From positions 1-32,611 of the forward strand of contig JAUVYH010000016.1 of assembly GCA_030603165.1 (NCBI GenBank): a stretch of DNA of 32,611 nt. The letters run 5' to 3'. The DNA comes from Fidelibacterota bacterium (lineage in GTDB: Bacteria > Fidelibacterota > UBA2242). This document shows, in pieces, positions 2,045-12,261 of this stretch; the stretch's first letter is position 1; each line of letters begins with the position of its first letter. The notes below the pieces were generated by a model. That model did not search any database and had not been told where the DNA came from. It saw only the letters and a list, made by a program, of their open reading frames with translations. The translations under genes and the position numbers were made by a program.

Positions 2045-2524
2045 TGGAAGGTGAAGTTAATTTTAGTAGTTATTATGAGAATAACAACATTTTTGGGACA
2101 GAGACGAATGTTGTATTTGAATAGAATGCAAAACACAGTTTTTGACTCAAGCGCGTTCCCAAATGCAATTTGGGAACGAGAGTATCGAGAGTGAGGGATC
2201 TCAGTTTGGGAACGAGGGTATTCCGAATGAATTTGGAAATGGCGAGAGAGAAGCGTTTATGCCCATTCACTTCCGTCAATCTATGTTGAATAAAGATTGG
2301 AGTCTATTATTAAAAGTTTAATCAATAGCAGGCTTATTAGACGGACTCCAGATAATTAATATTATCAGAACGTTTTTAAAATTTGGTAATAAGACTTATA
2401 TTGGCAATAGTCAAAAAATAGAGAGCGCCATGATATTTTATTTAAAAATTAAAAATTCCTTTTTATTTATGGATACTATCGAGTAATTTAAAACGTTGAA
2501 AATAGATTAGAAAAGGGAGAAAAC
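2045..2524. other. Intergenic region with REP copies and AT-rich promoter region
   Basis: The left third carries the right REP palindrome (2154-2178) and an isolated half-repeat, TTTGGGAACGAG, at 2205-2216. Further on, TGGAGTC (2298-2304) and GACTCCA (2344-2350) form widely spaced inverted arms. The remaining sequence is AT-rich and presumably holds the promoter of the following gene, but no clear -35/-10 pair stands out. No credible coding sequence is present. Confidence 0.5.
2154..2178. repeat. REP-like palindrome, right copy
   Basis: This is the same 11-bp arm pair as at 1427-1451, with loop GCA instead of TGT. It is followed about 26 bases later by a half-copy (2205-2216). The mirror-image layout around the transposase gene suggests a REPtron-like unit of about 0.8 kb (1405-2216). 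Confidence 0.75.
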
Positions 2525-2546
2525 ATGCCCAAATTAGTAAAAAAAG
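2502..2546. repeat. Direct repeat, left copy, covering RBS and first codons of the 723-aa gene
   Basis: The stretch runs from an ATAGATTAG start through GGGAGA and ATGCCC to AATTAGTAAAAAAAG. It recurs with about ten differences at 4693-4739, directly after the stop codon of the same gene. The repeat includes the ribosome site and the first seven codons. Confidence 0.7.
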
Positions 2547-4696
2547 TACAAAGATCGTCTGAGACATTAATTTACGACAATAAGATTGTCTTTTTGATTC
2601 CCCCGGAGTTAAATGAAATTGAAATTTCAAAAATATTTTTATTTTTACAAAGTGAAAATTCAAACCCGCTTTTTTCATATAAAAAATTAGTTTCAAATTT
2701 TAAAACCCTCGGAAATATCAGTAATAAATCACTTTATGAACTTGAGTTATATAAGGGAGTTGGTAAAAAGGCTTTGTTCTATTTAAGAAAATGGTATGAC
2801 GGTTTATTTATCGGAAAATTCAAAGATATGCCCTTATTGTTATCTACAAATATCGACACAATAAAATGCAGCCCCCTTTGTCATGAATTTCTTTTAAAAT
2901 ACGATATAAAAAAAACAGACGAACTTAAACGGTTAGATATGGTTCCAATAGAGGAATATACCTACAATGATAAACTTGCAATTCTTGAACTTCGGACACT
3001 GTATTATAGTAAAAAGAATCGTGTTATTACAAGCAAAATCAATACCGTCAAATCCAAAAATGTTAATTTAATTCACGACATTGATTGCTACTTGTCGGGA
3101 AACTATATCTCAGATTCTGAGAAACAAATCGTTCAATTTCGATATAATAATAAAAATGGGAAAATAATTCATAAAGAAATTGGAATATTATTTAATCTGT
3201 CGAGGGAACGTGTCAGACAAATATTAAGAGATAAAATAATAGCGCCATATTGTACATTTTTTATTATTGATCATCAATATTATCATCAATATTTTCTTAA
3301 CTTGATAAAAAACACCCTAAAGCCCATAGAATTTTCAGATATATCCAGTTTAGAATATAAATGCAAATTTCAAAGCAACTTATATCTGGGTTTTTTATCA
3401 GATGTTTTTAAAAATATACCGTTTGCAAATTTTCTGCCATCCGAGCAAAATTCGGCTGTTTTGAAGATAAATTCGACACTTTTCAAAAAAGCAAAAGTCC
3501 CGTACAAACTTGATTTTTTCAATTATATCCAAAATATGACCGTTAAAGATCAACTATTACACTTTTTATCGGTGTTTAGTTCAAAAAGACTTCTTTTAAA
3601 TGATAGAAATAATACAACGTATTTAGACAAACGTCATTATAATTTTCATAAATGTGTTAAGGTTATTTTAAAAAACAGTGTTAAACCAATAAGCACCAAT
3701 GATATTTACAAACACCTTTCAAATTTGCCCTTACACAATAAAGAAAGTTTTAAAATGATATTTTCTCGACCTATTAAACGAAAATCTATGTTAACATATA
3801 TGTTAAAGTATAAAGATCTTTTTAGAATTGACCGGCATTTATGGGGTTTGGAGAAGCATTTATCGTATCCCAGAGAACTATGGTTCGAGGTGCAGGAATT
3901 TTGTCAAAATGAAATGAAAAATATGGGGCGTCAAATGCATGCCCGTGATTTATATTTAAAAGCGATTAAAAAATTTCCAAAGTTAAATAGCAAATATGAA
4001 TTGGCTGAAATATTAAAGAGAGATAACAATACTCAAAACTTAGGATTTTATACTTACAGTTTAGCATCGACGGGACAAAGTGTAAGGCTTACTTTAGAAA
4101 AAACGGTTAGAAATATTTTTAATATTAATAAAAATCCAATACATTGTAAAAAACTATATCAAGAAATTATAAAACACCGCTCTTGTAGATTTGAAAGCCT
4201 TTACACATTTGCGAAACAAACAGAATTTTTAAAGTTATATCGTCCGGGTTATTACGGACTAACTGAATATGACAATTTTAATAAAGAGTATTTAAGTAAA
4301 AATAAAAAATTCCTTCTAAGTTATGTTAAATATCGCAAGAAAGATGCTACATTAATATCTGATATTATCAATGAACTTGAAACAGATTTATCACAACCTG
4401 ATTTTATTAATATTATTAAAACAATTCCTGAAATTATTGTTGTTGAATCGGAAGATCCGGTAAATGCAACTTACATAATTTATAAGAAGTGGAGTATTAT
4501 GAGAGTTATCATTACAATTCTTGCAAGCACAAAAAAATCATATTTATTAAAGGATCTAAATATTTTAATAAAAAGGCTTACAAACAAAGGTTTTAAACCT
4601 GCTAAAATTCGTTATGAAGTTAAGAATGATGTTAGAATAACAAAAATGAATAATGGCTCATATAAGTATAATTCGGTATCAGGGGATTTCATATAG
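2525..4696 (+). CDS. Putative DNA-binding protein: RNAP alpha-CTD-like + sigma region-4-like HTH + winged-helix repeats
   Basis: I do not recognise this 723-aa protein as a named family. Residues 65-90 (SLYELELYKGVGKKAL core) resemble the helix-hairpin of the RNA polymerase alpha C-terminal domain. Residues about 180-242 resemble sigma-70 region 4: a helix ending in SEKQIVQFRY, then HKEIGILFNLSRERVRQIL, including the typical recognition-helix phrase SRERVRQI (about 225-232). The C-terminal half holds units that look like winged helices, ending in similar beta-wing phrases: LFRIDRHLWGL, FLKLYRPGYYGL and VRITKMNNGSYKY. I see no catalytic motif, signal peptide or membrane segment. Base composition is very AT-rich compared with neighbours, which suggests acquisition by transfer. 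A GGGAG ribosome site lies 6 bases before the ATG. The likely role is transcription control or DNA binding. An accessory or defence role is possible but unsupported here. Confidence 0.75.
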   Translation: MPKLVKKVQRSSETLIYDNKIVFLIPPELNEIEISKIFLFLQSENSNPLFSYKKLVSNFKTLGNISNKSLYELELYKGVGKKALFYLRKWYDGLFIGKFKDMPLLLSTNIDTIKCSPLCHEFLLKYDIKKTDELKRLDMVPIEEYTYNDKLAILELRTLYYSKKNRVITSKINTVKSKNVNLIHDIDCYLSGNYISDSEKQIVQFRYNNKNGKIIHKEIGILFNLSRERVRQILRDKIIAPYCTFFIIDHQYYHQYFLNLIKNTLKPIEFSDISSLEYKCKFQSNLYLGFLSDVFKNIPFANFLPSEQNSAVLKINSTLFKKAKVPYKLDFFNYIQNMTVKDQLLHFLSVFSSKRLLLNDRNNTTYLDKRHYNFHKCVKVILKNSVKPISTNDIYKHLSNLPLHNKESFKMIFSRPIKRKSMLTYMLKYKDLFRIDRHLWGLEKHLSYPRELWFEVQEFCQNEMKNMGRQMHARDLYLKAIKKFPKLNSKYELAEILKRDNNTQNLGFYTYSLASTGQSVRLTLEKTVRNIFNINKNPIHCKKLYQEIIKHRSCRFESLYTFAKQTEFLKLYRPGYYGLTEYDNFNKEYLSKNKKFLLSYVKYRKKDATLISDIINELETDLSQPDFINIIKTIPEIIVVESEDPVNATYIIYKKWSIMRVIITILASTKKSYLLKDLNILIKRLTNKGFKPAKIRYEVKNDVRITKMNNGSYKYNSVSGDFI

Positions 4697-4739
4697 AGAT
4701 TAGGAAAGGGGAGAAGCGTGCCCCAATTAGTAAAAAAAG
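4693..4739. repeat. Direct repeat, right copy, after the 723-aa gene
   Basis: This is a second copy of the sequence around the start of the preceding gene, here with GTG in place of ATG (GTGCCCCAATTAGTAAAAAAAG). It begins at the stop codon of that gene and runs straight into a terminator hairpin, so it cannot encode a full protein. It may be the remnant of a tandem paralogue or a duplicated insertion boundary. Confidence 0.65.
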
Positions 4740-4763
4740 CCGCGATATATTGCGGCTTTTTTT
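4732..4763. terminator. Bidirectional rho-independent terminator
   Basis: The arms AAAAAAAGCCGC (4732-4743) and GCGGCTTTTTTT (4752-4763) enclose the loop GATATATT. T-runs follow the stem on both strands, so it can end transcription of the 723-aa gene (plus) and of the tRNA (minus). Confidence 0.85.
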
Positions 4764-4775
4764 TAAAGCAATTTG

Positions 4776-4848
4776 CTCCGGAGGAGGGATTCGAACCCCC
4801 GACAAAGTGGTTAACAGCCACCTGCTCTACCAGCTGAGCTACTCCGGA
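4776..4848 (-). tRNA. tRNA-Asn (GTT)
   Basis: Read on the minus strand, this is a full 73-nt cloverleaf. The acceptor TCCGGAG pairs perfectly with CTCCGGA. The D-arm is GCTCAGCTGGTAGAGC. The anticodon stem GGTGG/CCACT carries the loop CTGTTAA, giving anticodon GTT (Asn). The T-arm has the TTCGAAT loop. The discriminator base is G. CCA is not encoded. The terminator at 4732-4763 lies just downstream. Its 5' end is repeated at 5720-5746. Confidence 0.95.
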
Positions 4849-4900: not shown

Positions 4901-5025
4901 AACGACCGAACTCACCCGCCGCCAACACAGCGGGGCAATGAACCTTGAAAAACCACCTGCTTTGATGCGGGGTAGAGCATTTCAAAAACCGCCGAGCCGT
5001 TGGTGGTCAGGTGCAGTGATTCGTT
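4901..5025. repeat. Long imperfect inverted repeat, attC-like, overlapping the antitoxin 3' end
   Basis: The outer arms AACGA (4901-4905) and TCGTT (5021-5025) pair. Inside them, CACC-C-GCCGCCAAC (4913-4926) pairs with GTTGGTGGTCAGGTG (5000-5013-ish) through two G-T wobbles and a bulge. Further in, TTGAAA (4945-4950) pairs with TTTCAA (4980-4985), and ACCTGC pairs around TTTGAT with GCGGGGT. A long stem with bulges, AAC/GTT ends, and a position overlapping the 3' end of a small gene are the layout of integron attC sites. The R-box match (RYYYAAC/GTTRRRY) is incomplete, so this is a resemblance and not an identification. Confidence 0.45.
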
Positions 5026-5224
5026 TAACACTTTTTTTTCTTAATGCCATCGCTTTTTGACTAATATCTTTTATAGTTAAATCTTCATCCAACCCTTGTC
5101 GCCACTTTGTATAATCAAAAGGTTCTCTTTGAATTAGAGCAATAAACCGCTCTGTTTCAATATCACCAAGATATTTTGCGAGGACTTGGACCCCTTTCAA
5201 CCTAATTTCTGTATTGGTCATCAT
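4982..5224 (-). CDS. Putative antitoxin partner of the PIN-domain toxin
   Basis: This 80-aa protein begins inside the last codons of the PIN gene (ATGATGA overlap of 4 bp), so the two are almost certainly co-translated. I do not recognise a named antitoxin family. It is predicted to be helical, with a charged middle (FIALIQREPFDYTKWRQGLDE) and a basic C-terminal part (MALRKKSVKR). The final residues (ITAPDHQRLGGF) are encoded inside the inverted repeat at 4901-5025, so they may have been supplied by that element and not by the original gene. Two successive ATG codons are possible starts. The antitoxin role is inferred only from size, overlap and its PIN neighbour. Confidence 0.7.
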   Translation of the reverse strand: MMTNTEIRLKGVQVLAKYLGDIETERFIALIQREPFDYTKWRQGLDEDLTIKDISQKAMALRKKSVKRITAPDHQRLGGF

Positions 5225-5655
5225 GAGAAGACCTCCTTTATGAAGCCGATTGGATCATTGATTTTAATATTGTTTAATAGCCTTGCTCGTTTCAGAATCC
5301 GATCATCGGTAGTCAAAAAATATTCACATTTTGCAATGATAGCACAAGCGATGTGTAATGAGTCAATCTTGTAAAATCCTTTTTCATTCAGTTCTTTTGC
5401 AGTTTCAATTACTTCTGAACTCTCTTCCATATCTTCTATGGCATATTTTTTCCATTCTTTAATTCGTTCTTTCCGTTCTTGATATGGATTCTTATTATTC
5501 TCATAATCCAAAATGTATGACCAAATCAACTGAACTTTTCCTACCCGGATTTCTTCCTGAATTTCCAGTTTTGCCTCTGACTCAAGCCGAATTCTGATTT
5601 GAGATTGATCGTCAAATGGTCGGTTGAAACAACAATTATCCAAGTACAATTTCAT
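5221..5655 (-). CDS. PIN-domain ribonuclease, putative VapC-like toxin
   Basis: This 144-aa protein has the PIN fold pattern of metal-dependent RNases. Seen: N-terminal MKLYLDNCCFNRPFDD with the first acidic residue Asp 6, the central acidic segment DYENN (Glu 52), KIDSLHIACA with Asp 98, and FLTTDDRIL with Asp 117/118. These match the quartet of acidic residues that bind Mg/Mn. The length is typical of VapC-like toxins. In many such pairs the antitoxin gene comes first; here the toxin gene is first and the small partner overlaps its end. The module lies between an intact tRNA-Asn and a degenerate tRNA-Asn copy, consistent with insertion at the tRNA. Upstream of the ATG no strong ribosome site is visible. 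The target RNA cannot be predicted. Confidence 0.85.
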   Translation of the reverse strand: MKLYLDNCCFNRPFDDQSQIRIRLESEAKLEIQEEIRVGKVQLIWSYILDYENNKNPYQERKERIKEWKKYAIEDMEESSEVIETAKELNEKGFYKIDSLHIACAIIAKCEYFLTTDDRILKRARLLNNIKINDPIGFIKEVFS

Positions 5656-12222: not shown

Positions 12223-12261
12223 ATAAATATATGAATAATCCAAGTTAAGACGGTTCATGTT

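Follow-up and report, generated by a model that had tools for sequence, protein, structure and literature searches.

Helix-turn-helices of the sigma70 region 4 type are found in many regulators that are not sigma factors. Large serine recombinase elements that target tRNA genes are a second group of systems relevant to the locus considered here. In other bacteria a small annotated gene, DUF2924, is located directly 5' of a serine recombinase, which sets a precedent for a partner gene at such a place. A third system is PglW of type 2 BREX, in the published layout of which three wHTH modules come after an alpha-CTD-like domain (PMC12839542). Here we analyse a gene, P0001, in a 32,611-nt stretch of DNA (the window) in which it is followed by a tRNA-Asn gene. 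P0001 encodes a putative DNA-binding protein of a mobile element, in which one known helix-turn-helix (HTH) lies within an otherwise unassigned chain.

Results

P0001 is a maintained gene with few relatives

The sequence-only reading had described an AT-rich gene of 723 aa and had taken its composition as a sign of transfer. Coordinates, length and composition all proved correct.

2525..4696, plus strand: P0001 gene, a single open frame of 723 aa

The GC content of P0001 is 0.276 (27.6%) and its GC3 0.240, while the window mean GC is 0.422; it is the lowest value among the 19 window ORFs, and the foreign composition is thereby upheld. Three further loci carry the gene, with 98% (L004), 85% (L005) and 79% (L006) identity to P0001, and the frame is intact in all of them. 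Between the copies dN/dS is 0.29–0.50. Not a single premature stop was observed, whereas about 10 are expected if substitutions are placed at random up to the observed divergence (P(0) < 1/2000). Given the dN/dS values and the absence of stops, P0001 is a real gene under continued protein-level selection and not a chance ORF. The value near 0.5 in the most distant pair means modest constraint.

It is important to note that only three independent loci of P0001 are known, L004 being near-identical to the window. With four sequences, of which two hardly differ, the family is too small for reliable remote homology. L004, L005 and L006 were the yield of one scan over 84,980 species genomes using short exact-peptide seeds, the reach of which is limited to close relatives. 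Among 245 genomes of the phylum, P0001 is carried by G000, G002 and G005 only; the remaining full-profile matches extend little or not at all beyond region 4, and the C-terminal part gave nothing convincing elsewhere in this search. No relatives were found by tblastn in phage, plasmid and viral-contig collections, which is why a phage origin was rejected. Searches with segments of P0001 at E up to 10 returned chance matches only. One of them, to a Synechococcus phage 'kinase', was discarded because it and that phage gene are on opposite strands.

L004 (JAUVIB010000188.1) is filed under a Calditrichaceae genome, and its contig name states a coverage of 415. Over 4.5 kb it is syntenic with the window at 96% identity. 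Since the neighbour genes of the window are present on L004 at this identity, mis-binning is the simpler reading and transfer across phyla to Calditrichaceae is unlikely. L004 is probably a mis-binned Neomarinimicrobiota contig from nearly the same organism as the window. Genomes related to the holder of L004 gave region-4 matches only.

Domains of P0001

Four parts of the protein had been proposed to carry recognizable folds.

3110..3229, plus strand: sigma70 region 4-type HTH (PF04545), P0001 residues 196–235
2675..2800, plus strand: possible alpha-CTD-like helix-hairpin-helix, residues 51–92, from hhalign to the RpoA-CTD profile
2822..3028, plus strand: proposed second alpha-CTD-like unit, residues 100–168, unsupported
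3620..4678, plus strand: about five putative winged-helix units, residues 366–718, read by eye, with weak matches

The region-4-like HTH with the motif SRERVRQI, claimed by the earlier reading, is confirmed: PF04545 matches with 27.0 bits against a curated cut-off of 24.1 (E 3.1e-6), and region 4 of SigA and SigB proteins with solved structures can be aligned to the HTH. All four proteins retain ERVRQI. The longer motif is SRERVRQI or TRERVRQI in three of them and TGERVRQI in L006, where the Arg preceding ERVRQI is replaced by Gly, a single changed residue. All sigma matches of Pfam and NCBIfam fall within residues 181–237, and they include neither sigma region 2 nor region 3. Judged from these profile matches, P0001 is not a sigma factor, and the HTH is the sole certain domain among those proposed for it.

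The alpha-CTD-like hairpin stood in part. Residues 51–92 score 21.0 against the RpoA-CTD profile (hhalign), a value reached by none of 400 shuffles but exceeded by one of 253 windows drawn as decoys from proteins encoded nearby. The generic HHH_2 model matches the hairpin with E 0.049. PF03118 gives no match to P0001 with E up to 1, and P0001 is absent from the genome search with this model at E 0.1. By profile comparison, alpha-CTD likeness of residues 51–92 is suggestive. The second hairpin was dropped, as 10 of 60 shuffles equal its score on the same profile. The general claim that the protein is built from RNA-polymerase parts does not hold: the sigma4 HTH alone is established, and the alpha-CTD part is a weak helix-hairpin-helix resemblance below Pfam thresholds.

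These results bear on the idea that P0001 mimics parts of the polymerase, its alpha-CTD-like and sigma4-like modules occupying UP and −35 elements and so recruiting or blocking RNA polymerase. The ERVRQI motif in the recognition helix of the sigma4 HTH and the profile match that no shuffle reached would both fit such a mimic. However, the alpha-CTD match stays below Pfam reporting and is outscored by a decoy, the second hairpin is unsupported, and the recognition-helix Arg has become Gly in L006. We consider the polymerase mimic quite unlikely.

For the C-terminal region, several winged-helix units had been claimed, and these are undemonstrated. All winged-helix families of Pfam, HARE-HTH among them, stay below their cut-offs in P0001, WH_Egal being a weak match with E 0.017. 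There are weak matches over short stretches to two phage families without assigned function, phrog_4665 in all four members (best E 5e-5) and phrog_22617 in three of the four (best E 1.5e-4). In self-comparison no internal repeats of P0001 are significant after discounting shared boundary residues. Among the four best pairs, three match over 5 columns owing to these residues and were rejected as winged-helix repeats; the fourth, between the units 252–345 and 366–447, is weak and spans 17 columns. AlphaFold models made from the four sequences only have a mean pLDDT of 34 at full length and 37 for the C-terminal region, both too poor for use. The full-length model puts strands at the confirmed sigma4 region and does not recover its helices. 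As this confirmed region is also mispredicted, the silence of AlphaFold on the alpha-CTD is no counter-evidence. The low-confidence pattern of helices and strands, together with the weak profile matches, is compatible with winged helices without demonstrating them.

A duplicated start region opens a dead serine recombinase

The start region of P0001 occurs a second time directly after its stop codon.

2504..2546, plus strand: 43-nt direct repeat, copy 1, covering the P0001 ribosome-binding site, its start codon and the codons just after it
4697..4739, plus strand: 43-nt repeat, copy 2, immediately 3' of the P0001 stop, at the former start of the serine recombinase that is now lost
4715..4764, plus strand: recombinase remnant of about 12 codons that now folds into a hairpin (−17.2 kcal/mol, z −2.9) resembling a terminator, with a T run after it

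The two copies are identical at 36 of 43 positions; the next best position in the window reaches 25 of 43. Copy 2 reads VPQLVKKAAIYC in the window, and in L006 this reading is continued as a resolvase-like N-terminus. About 22 nt separate the P0001 stop from the recombinase start. In L006 the second start opens a larger decayed remnant of a large serine recombinase. Its N-terminal piece, LPQLVKKAAIYCRVS, matches an intact serine recombinase (E 4e-6), and its C-terminal piece shares 49% identity with the G014 recombinase. Every copy of the recombinase detected next to P0001 is dead. Since no intact copy of the P0001–recombinase element was found, we infer the two-gene operon from the remnants and from synteny.

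The arrangement also raises the alternative that P0001 serves the serine recombinase only, as an accessory factor for directionality or for the target site, and plays no part in transcription. P0001 lies immediately upstream and forms one unit with the recombinase, in the position that the small DUF2924 gene takes by other serine recombinases. Yet P0001 is very large compared with known directionality factors. Moreover, selection on it seemingly continued even though every adjoining recombinase copy is dead, and in G240 the gene ahead of the recombinase has no relation to P0001. A purely accessory function of this kind appears distinctly improbable.

The tRNA-Asn site

The association with an accessory element, suggested by the earlier reading, is upheld in the form of a decayed serine-recombinase element at tRNA-Asn.

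4775..4848, minus strand: tRNA-Asn (GTT), apparent insertion target (ARAGORN; Rfam RF00005, 68.6 bits)
2306..4774, plus strand: transferred element, approximate (P0001 and recombinase remnant), from the L006 homology limit; the left edge is approximate

Homology with L006 begins near window position 2306. Between the window and G005 the P0001 gene with its flanks has 88% DNA identity, as compared to about 71% for HIT and EF-G next to it. Because of this difference, P0001 has most likely been moved horizontally relative to the genes around it. The dS of the P0001 gene is 0.21; that of EF-G is saturated and not computable.

Large serine recombinases, intact or cut by contig ends, end at tRNA-Asn in G014, G151 and G240. 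They all contain PF07508/PF13408, and those of G151 and G240 also PF00239. No recombinase ORF is present beside the HIT–tRNA-Asn arrangement in G004, G006, G008 and G016. Contigs end near the site in G002, G011, G018, G019, G009, G013 and G017, as expected for a variable site; other causes are possible. In G002 the P0001 contig stops after a tRNA-like copy that is broken; tRNA-Asn in intact form is on another contig, so the junction is not seen whole there. A second copy of the 3' part of the tRNA was sought in the window with up to 3 mismatches; the tRNA itself was the only hit and no attL/attR pair could be defined.

Several other features are seen around this site. L006 has an 86-nt tandem duplication (5061–5232, 98% identical) over part of tRNA-Asn and its flank. 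Broken tRNA-like copies are located near 4640–4735 in L006 and near 12226–12330 in L005. In L036 (G240:C195, 4810–8773) the tRNA-Asn serine recombinase has an unassigned gene of 206 aa ahead of it, and a DEAD-box helicase gene lies by the recombinase on the opposite strand, a different cargo at the same tRNA. In the window, a gene for a Y1-transposase of the REP-associated type (1508–2044) is surrounded by 42-nt inverted repeats (1424–1465 and 2140–2181) that are 83% complementary. L004 has this transposase gene; in L005 the interval from the dehydrogenase gene to P0001 gives no DNA match to it. Between tRNA-Asn and HIT there is a PIN-domain-like gene (4982–5655, minus strand; 23.0 bits, just below the Pfam cut-off of 23.6), which overlaps an 80-aa ORF by a few bases in the layout of a toxin-antitoxin pair.

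P0001 could be anti-phage or invader-sensing cargo, a DNA sensor with a layout like that of the DNA-binding halves of PglW-type defence proteins. It would fit this possibility that the element sits at a tRNA hot spot, that the helicase gene adjoins another recombinase element at the same tRNA, that a PIN-domain-like gene is nearby and that PglW combines an alpha-CTD-like domain with three wHTH modules (PMC12839542). On the other hand, none of the four P0001-family proteins matches a PADLOC defence model, P0001 has no effector domain, and the transferred segment consists of P0001 and the remnant only, without neighbouring defence genes. Weighing these points, we regard a defence function as unlikely.

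Discussion

We propose that P0001 is a predicted DNA-binding protein which regulates a tRNA-Asn integrative element, and we consider the case for this role evenly balanced. In Neomarinimicrobiota, a small integrative element would insert at the 3' end of tRNA-Asn, with P0001 as the first gene of a two-gene unit and a large serine recombinase directly after it. The protein would bind specific DNA, partly via its sigma4-type recognition helix. It may regulate the element by acting on the transcription of the operon to which it belongs, and perhaps on promoters of the host or of phages. Alternatively, P0001 may assist or restrain the recombinase at the sites of the latter, a route that is plausible because small DUF2924 partner genes directly precede serine recombinases elsewhere. 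Transcriptional control is slightly preferred, since the HTH is of the promoter-reading type. The recombinase has decayed, and P0001 would have been retained after that. Survival of P0001 past the loss of the recombinase suggests a benefit for the host, or at least that mobility was lost recently.

A more far-reaching version of this role combines alpha-CTD-like and sigma4-like readers and a row of winged helices in one chain. The element could then address host promoters without a sigma factor or polymerase of its own, and the host would have kept the protein after the recombinase was lost. We find this version quite unlikely.

If the regulatory role of P0001 is true, the large DNA-binding protein of a mobile element has survived the loss of its recombinase at a tRNA hot spot, and a promoter reader of the sigma4 type is tied to control of the element in a way that can be tested. 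The duplicated start region and the dead recombinase show how context can explain an orphan gene where domain searches cannot. If the alpha-CTD part is real, P0001 would be an uncommon pairing of polymerase-type DNA readers in a single regulator.

Comparison with known systems

It had been claimed that no described family has the whole layout, and indeed no full-length family was found for P0001 in Pfam, NCBIfam, PADLOC, PHROGs and PDB sequences, nor any described protein with this layout in the open-licence literature. Known systems share parts of it. As in sigma70 region 4 (PF04545), there is one HTH (residues 196–235) with an ERVRQI recognition helix, but in P0001 it is embedded in 723 aa without regions 2 or 3. 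Residues 51–92 are collinear with the hairpin of the RNA polymerase alpha-CTD (PF03118), with 21% identity to the E. coli protein over 42 columns; unlike a true alpha-CTD, this hairpin is unreported by PF03118 at E 0.1 and is equally close to generic helix-hairpin-helix (HHH_2).

MzaA, a sigma-factor-like component of MZA defence, is similar in length and weakly matches the sigma4 HTH of P0001 (E 0.097). The sigma-factor part of the MzaA model is at about 474–716, where ordinary sigma factors match as well, whereas P0001 covers 642–693 only. Membership in this family (NF041931) was rejected: the match has 11.5 bits over residues 181–233 against a cut-off of 800 bits, and region 4 alone is matched. 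No mza gene cluster was seen beside P0001. A 645-aa frame in L081 (G240:C11) does score 423 bits to the MzaA model; it has the sigma-factor half at its end and, read by eye, ankyrin-like repeats at its start.

PglW has the published layout nearest to the picture of an alpha-CTD-like domain with wHTH modules, a comparison made by layout and not by sequence. P0001 differs in having no match to a NERD nuclease or a kinase, and the window contains no BREX genes.

From tRNA-targeting large serine recombinase elements the locus differs in that the recombinase is dead here and about 2.5 kb is left with one intact gene. It resembles them in the recombinase pieces directly after P0001 at tRNA-Asn, and related recombinases overlap tRNA-Asn elsewhere in the phylum.
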